Shown in pieces: positions 6,760 to 20,567 of a DNA stretch of 64,000 bases. The DNA is taken from assembly GCA_003225175.1 (NCBI GenBank), contig QIBA01000046.1, forward strand, positions 26,675 through 90,674, given 5' to 3'. This DNA comes from Acidobacteriota bacterium. GTDB lineage: Bacteria > Acidobacteriota > Terriglobia > Terriglobales > Acidobacteriaceae. Below the pieces are notes generated by a model. It saw only the letters and a list, made by a program, of their open reading frames with translations. It did not search any database and had not been told where the DNA came from. The position numbers were made by a program, and so were the translations under genes. Numbering within the stretch: position 1 is the first letter of the stretch; every line of letters starts with the position of its first letter.

Positions 6760-7386
6760 TCAAATCAGGTTGAGCCCCGGACCGCCGCTCGTGGTTCCTG
6801 CCGTGTTCTTCTTCTTGGACTTACTCCCAACTTTGCCGTTGCTACCTGACTTGTTCATGGCGTCGTGAACTGCCTTTGCGTGGGTCAGGTGGTTATCCAG
6901 CGTAGGATAAGTGCGAGTCGCGAAGTCTTTGACATCGGAGTTGGCGGACGTGTTTGCAGCTTCCTTCTTGAACTCCGCCACATCCTTCACGTGATCCTTA
7001 ACCATCATTTGCATGTAAGCCCGATCAAAGGCAGCGCCGGATAGCTTTTCCAGCCGCTGCTGCTCAGCTTTTTGTTCGGCACCTACTTCTTTTGGGACCT
7101 GCAAATTGTTCTTTGACGCCACTCCTTCAAGCTCCTGCTCGGCCTTCGAGTGATCGTCGACCATCATCTGACCGAACTTCTTCACGTCATCGTTCTGTGA
7201 CTTCTCAGTTGCCATTTTTCCCAGCGCAACTTCAGCCATATTCCCTTGAGCAGCTTTGGTTACAAACTGAGAGTCGGAAACTGCGCCGGCCTTCGCCGTT
7301 GATTTTTGGGATTTCGATCCAGAGCTCTTCTCCTGCGCAACGGCAGACACACAGAGCGCCAAACATAGAATGGCCAGCAAACGCAT
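6760..7386 (-). CDS. DUF4142 secreted helical protein
   Basis: The 208-residue product has a signal peptide (LLAILCLALCVSAVAQ) and a DUF4142 domain from about residue 38 to 180. Landmarks are DSQFVTKAAQGNMAEVALGK, VKKFGQMMVDDHSKAEQEL, FDRAYMQMMVKDHVKDVAEF and a final TLDNHLTHAKAVHDAM. The paired His/Asp/Glu pattern suggests a ferritin-like four-helix bundle, and metal binding is possible but unproven. The C-terminal tail is low-complexity (Lys, Ser, Gly). DUF4142 proteins are very common in soil bacteria, often linked to envelope stress. Confidence 0.88.
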   Translation of the reverse strand: MRLLAILCLALCVSAVAQEKSSGSKSQKSTAKAGAVSDSQFVTKAAQGNMAEVALGKMATEKSQNDDVKKFGQMMVDDHSKAEQELEGVASKNNLQVPKEVGAEQKAEQQRLEKLSGAAFDRAYMQMMVKDHVKDVAEFKKEAANTSANSDVKDFATRTYPTLDNHLTHAKAVHDAMNKSGSNGKVGSKSKKKNTAGTTSGGPGLNLI

Positions 7387-7518
7387 ATAGCACCTCTCTT
7401 CGCCTTTCTTTGCTTAGAGTGTGGAAGAAGCGATGCAGTTTGCCGGATGCGATGCTGTGAACAGCCAACGAGAGCAGCAGGCACTTCATGGCGCTCGAGC
7501 TTCGTCGCGACTGAGCTG

Positions 7519-14526: not shown

Positions 14527-14677
14527 GTGTTGGCTTCGTCCCGGATAAGCTTCGCGCCGCGCGCGGAGGAGTCTAGAAAATAGCTAGCTATCATCGCGTG
14601 GATTGAAGGGTTCTCTGCTTCGAAGGCAAGTTTGTTCGGAAAACCGTACAAAGAACATTTCCGGGAACTTGGGCCCC

Positions 14678-14749
14678 ATTTCCGCACAGCTTAGAGTGCA
14701 ATATCGAGGCGTAATATCGCCAAGATCGCACACTAAGCTGTGCAGAAAT
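14678..14749. repeat. Long imperfect inverted repeat upstream of the Fis-type regulator
   Basis: Arms 14678-14694 and 14733-14749 are complementary at 16 of 17 positions; the core GCACAGCTTAG/CTAAGCTGTGC is perfect. The loop holds a further GTGC/GCAC pairing and two AATATCG words. It could be an operator or hairpin for the regulator at 13936, the first domain of the large RNA that follows, or a small repeat element. Confidence 0.6.
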
Positions 14750-14833
14750 TCTCGCGCTCACGCCTTTTCCACCCGACTCCACAAGACGGACTACTTTTAA
14801 ACAGGAAACCCACAAAATCGGATCGTATTTCCC

Positions 14834-16382
14834 TTGCTCCCATCTGCGAAAGGAGTAAATTCCCTAACACGCGAGCGTGAGATGTCCTGAATCGCTCGAG
14901 CCTGAGTTTCAAAGTTGAGATCTCCGTCAGGGGATGGAAGTTTGAAACAGTCGGTTGAGGCCCGCAGTTTCGTCGGAGAGGAACAGGCCGTAAGGTCGGT
15001 TCTGACGCGAGACGGAGCCGAGAGTTTCAATCGAGCAAGGACTGGTCGCAAACAACGAAAGTTGGAAAGCGATCGGTTGCTGAAATCGAAGATGCAGATG
15101 GGTCAGCAAACGGCGGCAGCGAGAGCTGTCAGCGGGTGCAAGGAATCAGGCGGCGAATAACCGCTTGAGACCGGAAGCCAACGGAATCGCATTGCAGGCG
15201 CAGTTCAAAAGACTGCGAACACAACGCTAGGAAAGTCGAAGGCGCAAGTTTTCGATATCCGAAAGTTCCGGCAGGCTGAGAGCGGGTTGAGGCTTCGCGG
15301 CTTCAGCCTGCGAGAACAAGGCGGCGTAAGTCGGCGAGTTCGTCAGCTTGGAAGCATGAGGATCGGCGAAAGCTGAGCTTCATGTGGGAAAGCGCTAGAG
15401 GGCAACCGAAGTGCATTCCTCAAAGATTCTGCAGGCGTAAGAGATCAGCACTGTGAAAGGAAGCGTTGAATTAGGCGCAAGCTCAATTCAAGACTTCTGC
15501 ATCACAGCCAGGTTGCCGGTGCTGTCGGCGTAAGTGCGACGGCAGGTTGCAATAGTGCTGGAAACAGTCATTGCAACAGATTCGATGTTCCCGAAAGGGA
15601 ACACGCGAGTAGCAGCCCGCAAGGGCGAGTTGCATGAGCAGATTGCGGAAGCGTTCTGCTGATCACGGCAATCAAATCGCAACCCAGCGCATGGCGTAAG
15701 TCAAAGCGGGTTTTGCGGTTGTCAGTCGGCCGAAGGCATCCCGGCGCGCCCGGGACGAGGGCGGCGATTGATGACGGCTTCGCCGAAACTGAATCCAGGT
15801 TCGCCTGGAATCGGAAATTCAGGGACGAAGCTGTTCGAGAAGTCCAAGCATGAGGAACCATTTGGCGTGAGTCGAGTGCGGAATCATGCAGGCAAAAGCC
15901 CGGTTGACCTGAACAGCGTGGCGCAAGTCACGACGGACAATCGGCGAAAGACCAACTGTGATGCTGGGTGAGCGAAAGCTCATCTGCAATCCAGATGGCT
16001 TGCAAGACTGGGCGTCCTTCGGCGGCGAAAGCTGCTGGACAGATAGGCCAGCCTAGAGACCACAGAACACCGGAGATGAAAGTCTTCGGATCGTCTGTGG
16101 CCCTATCTCAAACCCGAGAGGGTGAGGGATAACAAAGAGCAGCAATCGGTGGACGGCCTGTCGAAATCAGGCAACAGGCTTCGCTCCTCGGGCACTCGCA
16201 GGAAGACGTCGCAAGGCGGGTTCCAGCGTAAAGCTTCCGGTAACGGAAGGGGGCACGATGGGTGACAAATTCACCAGATTGTGTGAGCAGCCGGTTTTGG
16301 CAACAGAGTCGGCCAGTTCCAAAGAGGACATCTCACCACCTTCCACGGCCTGCATTCGCAAGAATGCAGGCCGTGATTGTTT
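14834..16382 (+). ncRNA. Putative giant structured non-coding RNA (~1.5 kb), class unknown
   Basis: No protein-like reading frame exists here, but the + strand holds about twenty hairpins capped by GNRA loops. Examples by loop position: GTAA 14990, GAGA 15121, GCAA 15244, GAAA 15368, GCAA 15477, GAAA 15593, GGAA 15647, GCAA 15923, GAAA 15974, GAAA 16027, GAAA 16078, GTAA 16240; a TTCG loop sits at 15800. Several are nested in longer helices, such as 16041-16047 with 16102-16108 and 16060-16066 with 16094-16100. A perfect 12-bp helix joins 14877-14888 to 16325-16336, closing the whole molecule, and a 14-bp terminator follows 7 bases later. GNRA loops appear only on this strand, which sets the direction. 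The 5' end is uncertain (between ~14750 and 14877). I cannot match it to GOLLD, ROOL, OLE, RNase P or group II introns from memory. Confidence 0.82.
16344..16382 (+). terminator. Terminator of the giant RNA
   Basis: A perfect 14-bp stem (16344-16357 with 16362-16375) with a GCAA loop is followed by ATTGTTT. It lies 7 bases after the closing helix of the structured RNA. The stem is stronger than needed for intrinsic termination and shares the GNRA style of the RNA body. Confidence 0.8.
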
Positions 16383-16600
16383 AAGAACAGCAATAAGCGA
16401 TTAGCAATTAGCAATTAGCCAAAGCGCTGAAGCTGAGCACTTTGTTTCAAATTGGGATTCCCGACCTGCAGGCGAACACCCGGCCGCGGGTGGCCGCCAG
16501 GTTCTGAGTGTTTCGAGGAACTTTGGGATGGACGCGCGGTTTCGCGCGATTTCTGCATTGATGTCGAGCCTCAATTGGCCGAATGCCGACAGCCGAGGCT
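16373..16600. repeat. 228-bp tandem duplication, copy A
   Basis: This unit begins with GTGATTGTTTAAG, the tail of the RNA terminator, and repeats almost exactly at 16601 (period 228). It contains a run of GCAATTAGC-type words, a GC palindrome (CACCCGGCCGCGGGTG) and a short GGTTTCGCGCG segment. It ends in an ACAGC/GCTGT hairpin running into the next copy. No coding potential is seen. Confidence 0.9.
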
Positions 16601-16825
16601 GTGATTGTTTAAGGGCAGCAATAAGCGATTAGCAATAAGCAATTGGCCAAAGCGCTGAAGCTGAGCACTTTGTTTCAAAATGGGATTCTCGACCTGCAGG
16701 CGAACACCCGGCCGCGGGTGGCCGCAGGTTCTGAGTGTTTCGAGGAACTTTGGGATGGACGCGCGGTTTCGCGCGATTTCTCATTGATGTCGAGCTCAAT
16801 TGGCCGAATGCCGACAGCCGAGCGC
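16601..16825. repeat. 228-bp tandem duplication, copy B
   Basis: This is the second copy of the unit at 16373, differing by a few substitutions and single-base deletions (for example one C fewer in the GGCCGC run and a shorter ATTTCTCATTG). It ends ~30 bases before the start of the S4-domain gene, so it supplies that gene's upstream region. Confidence 0.9.
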
Positions 16826-16856
16826 CGACTGCCTGTTCCACGCGCTAGACTCTACG

Positions 16857-18296: not shown

Positions 18297-20567
18297 TCAC
18301 GATACCGTTGGCCGACGTTGGCGCCGCACCGCATCGTTCCGATAAGCGATTACCGGTATGCGGGCTTCAACTCGCGCTTTAACCCGGCTTCCGTCCACGC
18401 TGATCTGAAACTCCTCAGCGCCGTTCGCGCTTAACTTGGACGCACGAACTTCGCTGGCTTGCCAACCACGAGGCAAATTGGCCGTCAGCTCTTGAGCAGT
18501 GAGCGAGTAGAACGCGATTCGGTCTGTATCCAAGGGACAGAACGTGCCTGCCTCGGAACAAATCGGCGAACCGTCGAGTGAGGCGGTGTAGGCCTTGGCA
18601 TTCCAATCGATGTCGATCACCGCATTATCCTCCACCCCTATAACAGTTCTTTCTCCCTCGCGCCGGAACGACTCGATGTGGCGCGCGTGTAGTTGAAACC
18701 AGGGAACCATGATCAGATAGAAGGTATCGAGCGCGTCATTCAGATTCATGTCCGCGCGGACGATCGCATGCGAACAGCCGTTGTAGAACAACGTTTTCAT
18801 GATCCGTTCGGCAACCGTCGTGGTTCTGCCTGATTGTCCCCAGACCGCGCTCTTGCGATAGATGGTTGCTAGCAGCGGAATCGCGGTGCCGCCGAAGGGA
18901 CAGGTTCCCGGTCCCGTCATGTACCAGAAGGAACTGATCTTGCCGATGAATGCGTAGCGCAGCGCTTCGGAGCTTACGTCGACTCCGCGCTTGGCGAACT
19001 CGTGCAGGATCTTGTAGCGCCCATCGCGCAGGTTCTTGATCCCGCTTGCCGGATGTTCCGGATCCCAGTCGTTGCGGATCGAGAAATACGAGAGCACGTC
19101 CACGTGCGTAGTCTTCGGCAGCTTGTAACGCTCGCAGGTATAGCGAACGCGTTCCATTCCGGGACCGTCCATATACTTGGCCAGTCCGATGATGTAGGAG
19201 TTCTCCCCAGTCCAGTTACGGCTCTCCCAGAGCTCGCCATCGGGACGGCGCGCGATGATCTTCTCATCCCACGCCGGACTGCTGCGGTACGCATCATCGT
19301 AATTGTCGGAGAGCGTCGCGATGCAGTTGTAAGCTTTCGCCTTTTCCATCAACTTCATCATTCCGTCGTAGCCGCCGATGCGCTGGTTGACCTCCTGCAC
19401 TGCGGGATAGCCGGTGTCCTTGCCGCGATATTGCCAGCCCCAGAGATGGACGATCTGCGGAGAATAGTCAGTCAGCTCTGCGATTTGGTGGATGAGCTGT
19501 TCGCACTGCTCAAAGGTCGATGAAGCTTTGGGATAGCTGGGCTCATCGCAACGAATGCCATAGACAAACGCGTTGTCGTAAAGATGATTCGGGATCGGCG
19601 GCATGCGCTTGCGAACAAGCTTGGCCGCGTCGAACCAGGTCAGCGAAGTCTTGTCGCCCGGAGTACTGAGGAAGTCCAGACGACATTGTGACTCCTGTTC
19701 GATCAGTAAGTTGCGAGTCTGCCGATTTCCGCAATTCCGCGGAGTTCCCGGGCCCGTATTCATGTCATAGCAGAGCGTTCCGTTTACGCGATGGCATTTA
19801 ATGGTTCCGAGCGATGCGCGTCGCTTGCCCGGCTCGCCGCTTACAGCAAGTGTGGTGCCATCCATGAAAGCGGTAGTTTCCTGCACGCAGATCGCATGAT
19901 CCGTTCCAACCATTACCACTGGCAAAGTCGCCGACACATTTCCCCAAAAGGTATTCGGCGTCAGCAGTCCGGGGGATGCATCTTTGAGAGTGGCGAGCCA
20001 GCCGCCATCGTCGCCGTGGGCGAGCCATGATGCTCCATCTTCTTCTCGAACCGCAGCCAGTCGCGGCAGAGCTACTTCGATGAGCTCGTATCCGGGAGAT
20101 TCGCGAACTGCGTAGAGCACTACGCGAAGCGTAGCCGCTTCAACTATGTAGGCGATCACAAAACTTACAGCGGACTGCGAGCCGTCCTGAATCTGAAACA
20201 GCAGATCGGAATGCTCCTTCAGTTCAGAGTATTTCTGGACCGAAGCATTAGCATTTTTGATCGTTCCGGAAGACTTATCATAGAAAGTGACGGCGATCGG
20301 CTTGCCAAGGTCTTCGCCAAGCATCCGGCGGTTTCCACGCAGCAACCGATACTCATACGGCAGGCCATCATGCCGGTCGAGGACAACCTCCAGCTCCGCC
20401 GATCTGAGCACGATTGGATTCACGGGCGCGCTTCGGCTGGTGAGGGCTCCGGTATTTGCCGCTTCGGGAGTCTGGGGATAGACCTTGCTTCCGGCGAGTC
20501 CCACGGCAGCAGCGCCGCTGAGCTTAAGAAAAATTCGCCGATTGAGTTGTTCCATTTCCTCTTGCAT
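18297..20567 (-). CDS. Tat-exported glycoside hydrolase-like protein (GH101/DUF5696-like)
   Basis: The ~756-residue protein opens with a twin-arginine signal (LNRRIFLKLSGAAAVGLAGS). A beta-rich N-terminal region (to about 300) precedes a TIM-barrel-like region with LYDNAFVYGIRCDEPSY, IVHLWGWQYRGKD, TLSDNYDDAY, THVDVLSYF and GVDVSSEAL. The last two fit the nucleophile Asp and acid/base Glu positions of endo-alpha-N-acetylgalactosaminidases (GH101) and related DUF5696 enzymes. A C-terminal beta domain follows. Start choice: ATG at 20567; a second ATG at 20555 is equally possible. Assignment to a GH101-like clan is by motif impression, and substrate is unknown. Confidence 0.6.
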   Translation of the reverse strand: MQEEMEQLNRRIFLKLSGAAAVGLAGSKVYPQTPEAANTGALTSRSAPVNPIVLRSAELEVVLDRHDGLPYEYRLLRGNRRMLGEDLGKPIAVTFYDKSSGTIKNANASVQKYSELKEHSDLLFQIQDGSQSAVSFVIAYIVEAATLRVVLYAVRESPGYELIEVALPRLAAVREEDGASWLAHGDDGGWLATLKDASPGLLTPNTFWGNVSATLPVVMVGTDHAICVQETTAFMDGTTLAVSGEPGKRRASLGTIKCHRVNGTLCYDMNTGPGTPRNCGNRQTRNLLIEQESQCRLDFLSTPGDKTSLTWFDAAKLVRKRMPPIPNHLYDNAFVYGIRCDEPSYPKASSTFEQCEQLIHQIAELTDYSPQIVHLWGWQYRGKDTGYPAVQEVNQRIGGYDGMMKLMEKAKAYNCIATLSDNYDDAYRSSPAWDEKIIARRPDGELWESRNWTGENSYIIGLAKYMDGPGMERVRYTCERYKLPKTTHVDVLSYFSIRNDWDPEHPASGIKNLRDGRYKILHEFAKRGVDVSSEALRYAFIGKISSFWYMTGPGTCPFGGTAIPLLATIYRKSAVWGQSGRTTTVAERIMKTLFYNGCSHAIVRADMNLNDALDTFYLIMVPWFQLHARHIESFRREGERTVIGVEDNAVIDIDWNAKAYTASLDGSPICSEAGTFCPLDTDRIAFYSLTAQELTANLPRGWQASEVRASKLSANGAEEFQISVDGSRVKARVEARIPVIAYRNDAVRRQRRPTVS

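Follow-up and report, generated by a model that had tools for sequence, protein, structure and literature searches.

A giant ornate noncoding RNA outside every known class is supported for an intergenic region of an acidobacterial genome, at positions 14868–16378 (plus strand) of the 64,000-nucleotide stretch of DNA that was analysed (the window, whose coordinates are used throughout). This region is likely a stand-alone RNA gene of ∼1.5 kb. Its homologues, 1.3–1.55 kb in length, carry many compensatory changes and no Rfam family matches at its gathering score, which bears out the proposal of such an RNA made from a reading of the sequence alone. I infer transcription from its own promoter, as well as both RNA ends, from elements at its borders. 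Upstream lie a −35-like hexamer TTGCTC (14834–14839, plus strand), of which TTG is kept in the window and in all eight relatives holding the region, and, 16 nt past it, a −10-like hexamer TAAATT (14856–14861, plus strand), preceded by GAG in every row and reading TACATT in the genomes G012, G028 and G168 and TAGATT in G004. A threshold scan of the promoter region for the sigma-70 consensus returned no site; as the two hexamers fall below this threshold, the promoter assignment rests on their conservation. At the other end is a terminator-like hairpin of 14 bp with a GCAA loop (16344–16375, plus strand), seven bases 3′ of the helix that closes the molecule, whose T-rich tail is weak in the window (ATTGTTTAAG) and stronger in G028 and G012. 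The sequence-only reading had taken 14834–16382 as structured RNA with such a terminator at this distance. The plus-strand structured RNA and the hairpin were found, with the weak tail just described, but the start has to be moved, since 14834 is the first base of the conserved −35-like hexamer and the RNA probably begins near 14868. The promoter-like and terminator-like ends are retained while the flanking genes differ among relatives.

The predicted fold is very stable, with a minimum free energy (MFE) of −694 kcal/mol compared to −548 ± 8 in 12 dinucleotide shuffles (z of about −19, from these 12 shuffles only), and six relatives give MFE z-scores between −10.9 and −16.8. The energy per base is −0.46 kcal/mol, against −0.39 in the 16S rRNA of the same genome. 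In the MFE fold of the plus strand, 24 of 32 hairpins carry a GNRA tetraloop, whereas none of the 33 on the reverse strand do, the 12 dinucleotide shuffles average 1.3 and do not exceed 4, and the same-genome 16S rRNA, of nearly equal length, has 11 on 36 hairpins. The two distant relatives, G028 and G012, show the same pattern (20 of 28 and 23 of 31 hairpins, respectively). Counting GNRA loops by pattern on uninterrupted stems of at least 4 bp gives 22 on the plus strand and 0 on the minus strand, in agreement with the twenty or so hairpins, on one strand only, that had been noticed from the sequence alone. For stems of at least 5 bp the count is 12, whereas other 1511-base stretches of the window, on both strands, average 0.54 and never exceed 3. 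Past the likely start, the consensus has 31 hairpins. GNRA caps 25 of them in most rows and 20 without exception, and in 16 of the latter 20 the loops vary at the free positions of the motif and stay GNRA. From these alignments, the GNRA loops appear to be under selection. The one classical GNRA receptor half that was looked for, CCTAAG, is absent from L001, and a search for internal duplication within the RNA yielded one weak 17-nt repeat only.

Judged from its homologues, the family is real, and confined to one Acidobacteriota family as far as searched. The RNA is carried by nine genomes, namely that of the window, five others of its genus, and three belonging to two further genera. A DNA search of 100 genomes identified eight carriers, comprising the window's own genome, all five others of the genus and 2 of 54 from other genera of the family, with no match in 14 genomes of another family of the order or in 26 further genomes of the class. 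Two covariance models were also used, R1 for positions 15945–16142 and R2 for positions 14850–15080; the genome samples overlap, and the large searches employed strict filters, with which weak matches are lost. R1 retrieved the eight carriers of the DNA search among 398 genomes of the family, in 3 of 79 genera (6 of 6, 1 of 5 and 1 of 1 genomes per genus), the identical eight in 397 genomes of the order, and the window's own genome only in 396 genomes of the phylum. R2 retrieved nine carriers among 290 genomes of the family, and three matches, all already known, in 399 genomes of the class. Both models find one copy per genome. In the ninth carrier, G168 (L051 and L057, G168/G438), a contig end cuts the RNA after ∼130–140 bases, so that R1 undercounts its genus; a search of that assembly with the G028 RNA failed to recover the remainder. 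With 8 of 398 genomes of the family by R1 and 9 of 290 by R2, the distribution is patchy, and most relatives do without the RNA.

A scan for the 5′ element, with one genome per species from a list that lacks the window's own genome, G001 and G003 and may omit near relatives, returned 23 stretches. Six are true members by their flanks, all from records labelled Acidobacteria or Acidobacteriales (for example isolates AA112 and RYN_6) or, for L037, Acidobacteriota. The other 17 were rejected as chance matches: 16 are not from Acidobacteria, L045 is from Acidobacteria and lacks the flanks, and none matches R1. There was no match in 50,697 phage records or in 72,556 plasmid records. Five pattern matches in viral contigs were rejected, as none has the conserved flanks and none matches R1, and a 3′ pattern gave no match in the viral contigs.

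Conservation of the fold itself was assessed on a genus alignment of five full-length rows and two pieces of a sixth, with the consensus fold derived from the five rows, and with shuffles and slid pairing partners as controls. The consensus comprises 59 helices with a total of 522 pairs, of which three lie upstream of the likely start, and 94.1% of the cells pair. Within the genus, 123 of the 522 pairs have changed on both sides, compared to 48.3 in shuffles, where none of 500 reached this value, and 15–31 when the partners are slid out of register, a comparison in which the true register has the advantage that the fold was derived from five of its own rows. The consensus energy is −976 in the sense direction, −760 for the reverse complement, and −583 to −624 in eight column shuffles. 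The corresponding consensus folds contain 128, 105 and 40–69 double-changed pairs, the high antisense value being expected because most pairs survive reverse complementing. Covariation extends across genera, in alignments of eight rows, both in the 5′ part (14850–15080; 29 of 64 pairs double-changed, compared to 12.2 in shuffles) and in the 3′ core (15945–16142; 21 of 63, compared to 9.6). Between a 5′ domain (14906–15080, plus strand) that is alignable across genera and a 3′ core (15945–16263, plus strand) with long invariant stretches, including CCCGAGAGGG at 16113–16122, lies a variable middle (15081–15850, plus strand) that is shorter and not reliably alignable in G028 and G012, and is GNRA-rich there too. 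Compensatory changes in homologues had been put forward as the test of the closing helix and of the GNRA stems; they are numerous in the fold, but the closing helix is almost invariant and is thus conserved without covariation support of its own.

This helix involves a 5′ element (14869–14907, plus strand) that hardly varies: across the seven full-length rows, which represent the window and six relatives, 37 of its 39 positions never change, and G002 has one base inserted. The element contains one strand of the closing helix, together with several alternative partners. The closing helix pairs 14877–14888 with 16325–16336 (both plus strand) in a perfect 12 bp, exactly as the sequence-only reading had it. 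Its middle seven pairs (14881–14887 with 16326–16332) are kept in all seven full-length rows, while its outer part shows a misfit by eye in G028 and G012. The same 5′ element could form an early hairpin (14872–14898, plus strand), with CGAGCG at 14872–14877 and CGCUCG at 14893–14898, invariant in all eight rows. The loop of this hairpin contains the 5′ strand of the closing helix, and the two are therefore probably mutually exclusive. A possible pseudoknot joins GAGCCUG (14898–14904, plus strand) to CAGGCUU (16175–16181) through 7 bp, including one G-U, in all seven full-length rows; it shows no covariation, because nothing varies. CAGGCU (16175–16180) may alternatively pair with GGCCUG (16155–16160). 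As the competing 5′ and 3′ segments hardly vary, the data cannot choose among these pairings. The arrangement suggests that the 5′ end may fold on itself first, and pair with the finished 3′ end later. The longest match of the 5′ element as a complement of the genome's own 16S rRNA is at most 9 nt.

GNRA loops are common A-minor docking modules. With 25 of the 31 consensus hairpins mostly GNRA, the RNA seems suited to A-minor docking rather than to kissing; such loops are also simply stable, and some may not dock. The reading that I favour, and consider rather better than an even bet, is that of a stand-alone ∼1.5-kb RNA, likely with its own promoter and with a conserved fold, that most likely forms a compact particle through GNRA docking. 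The tetraloops would dock into the RNA's own helices; the nearly invariant 5′ element would form a local hairpin during transcription and would then pair with 3′ sequences, closing the molecule. The resulting particle, a monomer or small oligomer, may act in trans by offering proteins or other RNAs a scaffold or platform. A more specific proposal, put forward here as speculation, is that of a new giant class forming an RNA-only particle assembled almost wholly by GNRA docking and not by kissing, in which the 5′ element would serve as a timer hairpin until the 3′ end is made, and would then open, close the molecule and let the particle assemble.

The most serious competitor to the compact, GNRA-docked particle is a homo-oligomeric, RNA-only assembly, in which copies would be joined intermolecularly as in the GOLLD and ROOL nanocages or the OLE dimer; I give it roughly one chance in four. 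GOLLD is encoded by phages and prophages, often near tRNA islands, and forms a 14-mer cage, ROOL forms an 8-mer bridged by kissing loops, and OLE forms a dimer and binds partner proteins. The size, ornate fold and unsettled function of the present RNA are all in this style. GOLLD, ROOL and OLE have been shown to assemble into homo-oligomers made of RNA only, with kissing loops and A-minor contacts as bridges, while raiA is a monomer (PMC12286853). An invariant palindrome, GCUCGAGC, lies at 14894–14901 in the 5′ element and might mediate such a contact, but at eight nucleotides it may be due to chance. The known cages need kissing loops too, and only six of the consensus loops here are not GNRA. 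Three of these (15153, 15205 and 16163) show fair conservation within the genus, 15799 is UUCG, and 15294 and 15744 vary; 15153 and 15205 sit in the middle part that cannot be aligned in G028 and G012, and the palindromes flagged in loops 15294, 15744 and 16163 are not retained across rows. One loop does make a kissing contact possible, at 16163–16172, where all eight rows share a CAGG that could pair with GCCUG (14900–14904) of the same or another copy, with one misfit in G012. That few loops are able to kiss is a mild argument against a cage of the GOLLD or ROOL type. The multimer that the sequence-only reading had raised as a possibility thus goes further than the present evidence.

GOLLD is a large ornate bacterial RNA of unsettled function, with a conserved and a less conserved part, and its solved form has 833 residues (PMC12286853). 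The RNA described here similarly combines conserved and less conserved parts, but is nearly twice as long, is chromosomal in Acidobacteriota, and has two conserved ends around a variable middle and GNRA on most of its hairpin loops. The phage or tRNA-island setting of GOLLD was not encountered either, as there is neither a match in the phage records nor a true member in viral contigs, and the sole tRNA of the window is ∼10 kb away. ROOL is likewise a large ornate bacterial RNA, from which this one differs in having no Rfam match, few loops able to kiss, and no occurrence in phage or plasmid records. OLE resembles it as a large ornate RNA retained in a defined set of bacteria, but is reported as ∼600 nt long, mostly found in Bacillota and of unsettled function (PMC12054373), unlike the ∼1.5-kb RNA without Rfam match found here.

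In the window, G001 and G004, the RNA is preceded by the gene of a Fis-type response regulator and followed by that of an S4-domain protein. The other loci differ: G002 has the regulator upstream as in the window, and an ornithine cyclodeaminase-like gene downstream; in G003 a glycosyltransferase is encoded by the nearest upstream gene that matches Pfam, and a DUF4142 protein is encoded downstream; in G005 the downstream protein is DUF4142-like, and the upstream gene reads by eye as an ABC-transporter permease; in G028 the RNA is flanked by DUF6526 upstream and DnaB downstream. A DUF6526-like gene upstream and DnaB downstream were also recognised by eye in G012, where a GNAT acetyltransferase gene separates the former from the RNA. 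As there is no constant partner gene, the RNA looks like a gene of its own and not a leader, and the relatives' neighbourhoods hold no conserved partner that would point to a pathway. S4 domains bind RNA, and the S4-domain gene downstream in three genomes could thus hint at a protein-dependent RNP or regulatory RNA, with a fold completed by a bound protein in the manner of HEARO, as could the conservation of the 39-nt 5′ element beyond the needs of base-pairing. I consider this improbable: no relative of the S4 gene was found near the RNA in the stretches examined of G002, G003, G005, G028 and G012 (the G012 contig ends ∼0.7 kb past the RNA), and the predicted fold is very stable without a protein.

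The surroundings of the RNA hold some further features. Genes for DUF4142 or DUF4142-like proteins are located at 6763–7413 in the window and at L017:7541–8191, L013:6917–7621 and L018:166–813. Such a gene is next downstream of the RNA in G003 and G005, is separated from it by two intervening genes in G002, and in the window lies ∼7.5 kb upstream, which suggests that a neighbourhood inherited from a common ancestor was rearranged. Between the regulator gene and the promoter-like element of the window is an imperfect inverted repeat (14684–14743), made of GCACAGCTTAGAGTGC and its near complement, whose core GCACAGCTTAG occurs in 3 of the 67 loci examined, all three in the window's own genome. 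Just 3′ of the terminator-like hairpin, at 16388–16830, two similar stretches of ∼200 bases follow each other, as judged by eye, both with a run like AATAAGCGATTAGCAAT and a common GC-rich part. Further on, the 759-residue protein encoded at 18297–20576 matches Glyco_hydro_101 and DUF5696 and is probably a glycoside hydrolase.

Scans against Rfam at gathering thresholds, for the window and four relative loci, found no family over the RNA. With E-values up to 10, positions 14600–16600 gave three weak matches far below gathering scores, with no intron or rRNA family among them (the comparison that had been suggested as a check on the initial reading), and the two distant relatives gave only matches far below gathering, again with no intron family. 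The match with the lowest E-value, to tfoR, covers L015 7206–7301 (E 0.0009; 25.6 bits, where gathering requires 70). It spans the 3′-terminal part of the G012 RNA, terminator-like hairpin included, and was rejected as a chance match to a strong terminator. Profiles for GOLLD, ROOL and OLE are included in Rfam, as stated in PMC12286853, and these models matched neither the window and four relatives at gathering scores, nor 14600–16600 and the two distant relatives at E-values up to 10.

Group II introns start with a GUGAG-like motif, are of similar size, and combine GNRA loops with a closed multi-helix architecture. The RNA has the same architecture and loops at ∼1.5 kb, and a GUGAG at its 5′ side (14877–14881; GUGCG in G028 and G012) resembles such a start, yet a ribozyme or intron, for instance an ORF-less group II intron, is even less probable than an RNP. 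No intron family was matched in the window or the two distant relatives, and instead of being inserted in a host gene or element the RNA is intergenic, with conserved promoter-like and terminator-like ends that travel with it. In the loose sense of a long noncoding RNA with a covariation-supported secondary structure, it belongs with the large ornate structured RNAs. The lack of an Rfam family at gathering score, together with the conserved structure and ends, indicates that it forms, on present sequence evidence, a large structured RNA class that is new and exceeds GOLLD, ROOL and OLE in length; that it is longer than most such RNAs, and that its length and context correspond to no known one, had also been surmised beforehand. 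A literature search by titles and openings of abstracts, with most subscription papers outside it, found no report of this RNA among the records listed, and in the main text of a 2024 survey of 50 genomes the strings Acidobacteri and GNRA are absent (PMC11109978).

Protein coding was rejected, on the grounds that each of the six frames contains at least five stops in the window and in six relatives, and that gaps between the window and a relative are mostly not multiples of three (from 13 of 14 in G001 to 36 of 43 in G012). The longest open stretches, measured stop-to-stop, range from 119 codons in the window up to 210 codons in G012. I see next to no chance that the locus is a mere chance fold, a decayed coding region or the long untranslated leader of a downstream gene: its position, with the regulator gene on one side divergent and the S4 gene on the other co-directional, and the 100–210-codon open stretches in some frames of some rows, could be read in this way, but the covariation, the strand asymmetry, the column-shuffle controls, the stops and the frame-breaking gaps all oppose it, as do, for a leader, the varying downstream genes and the terminator-like hairpin in between.

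Few bacterial RNAs of comparable size and complexity are known beyond ribosomal RNA. GOLLD, ROOL and OLE, the best-known large ornate RNAs, are without settled function (PMC12286853; PMC12054373). By its style the acidobacterial RNA joins these large ornate RNAs, while by family it stands alone, with no Rfam match, and it is made distinctive by a length nearly twice that of the solved GOLLD and by GNRA on most of its hairpins. Since nine genomes carry it, one of them as a truncated copy, its fold, its assembly state and the effect of its deletion would be directly testable, which may offer a way to address these questions for giant RNAs.
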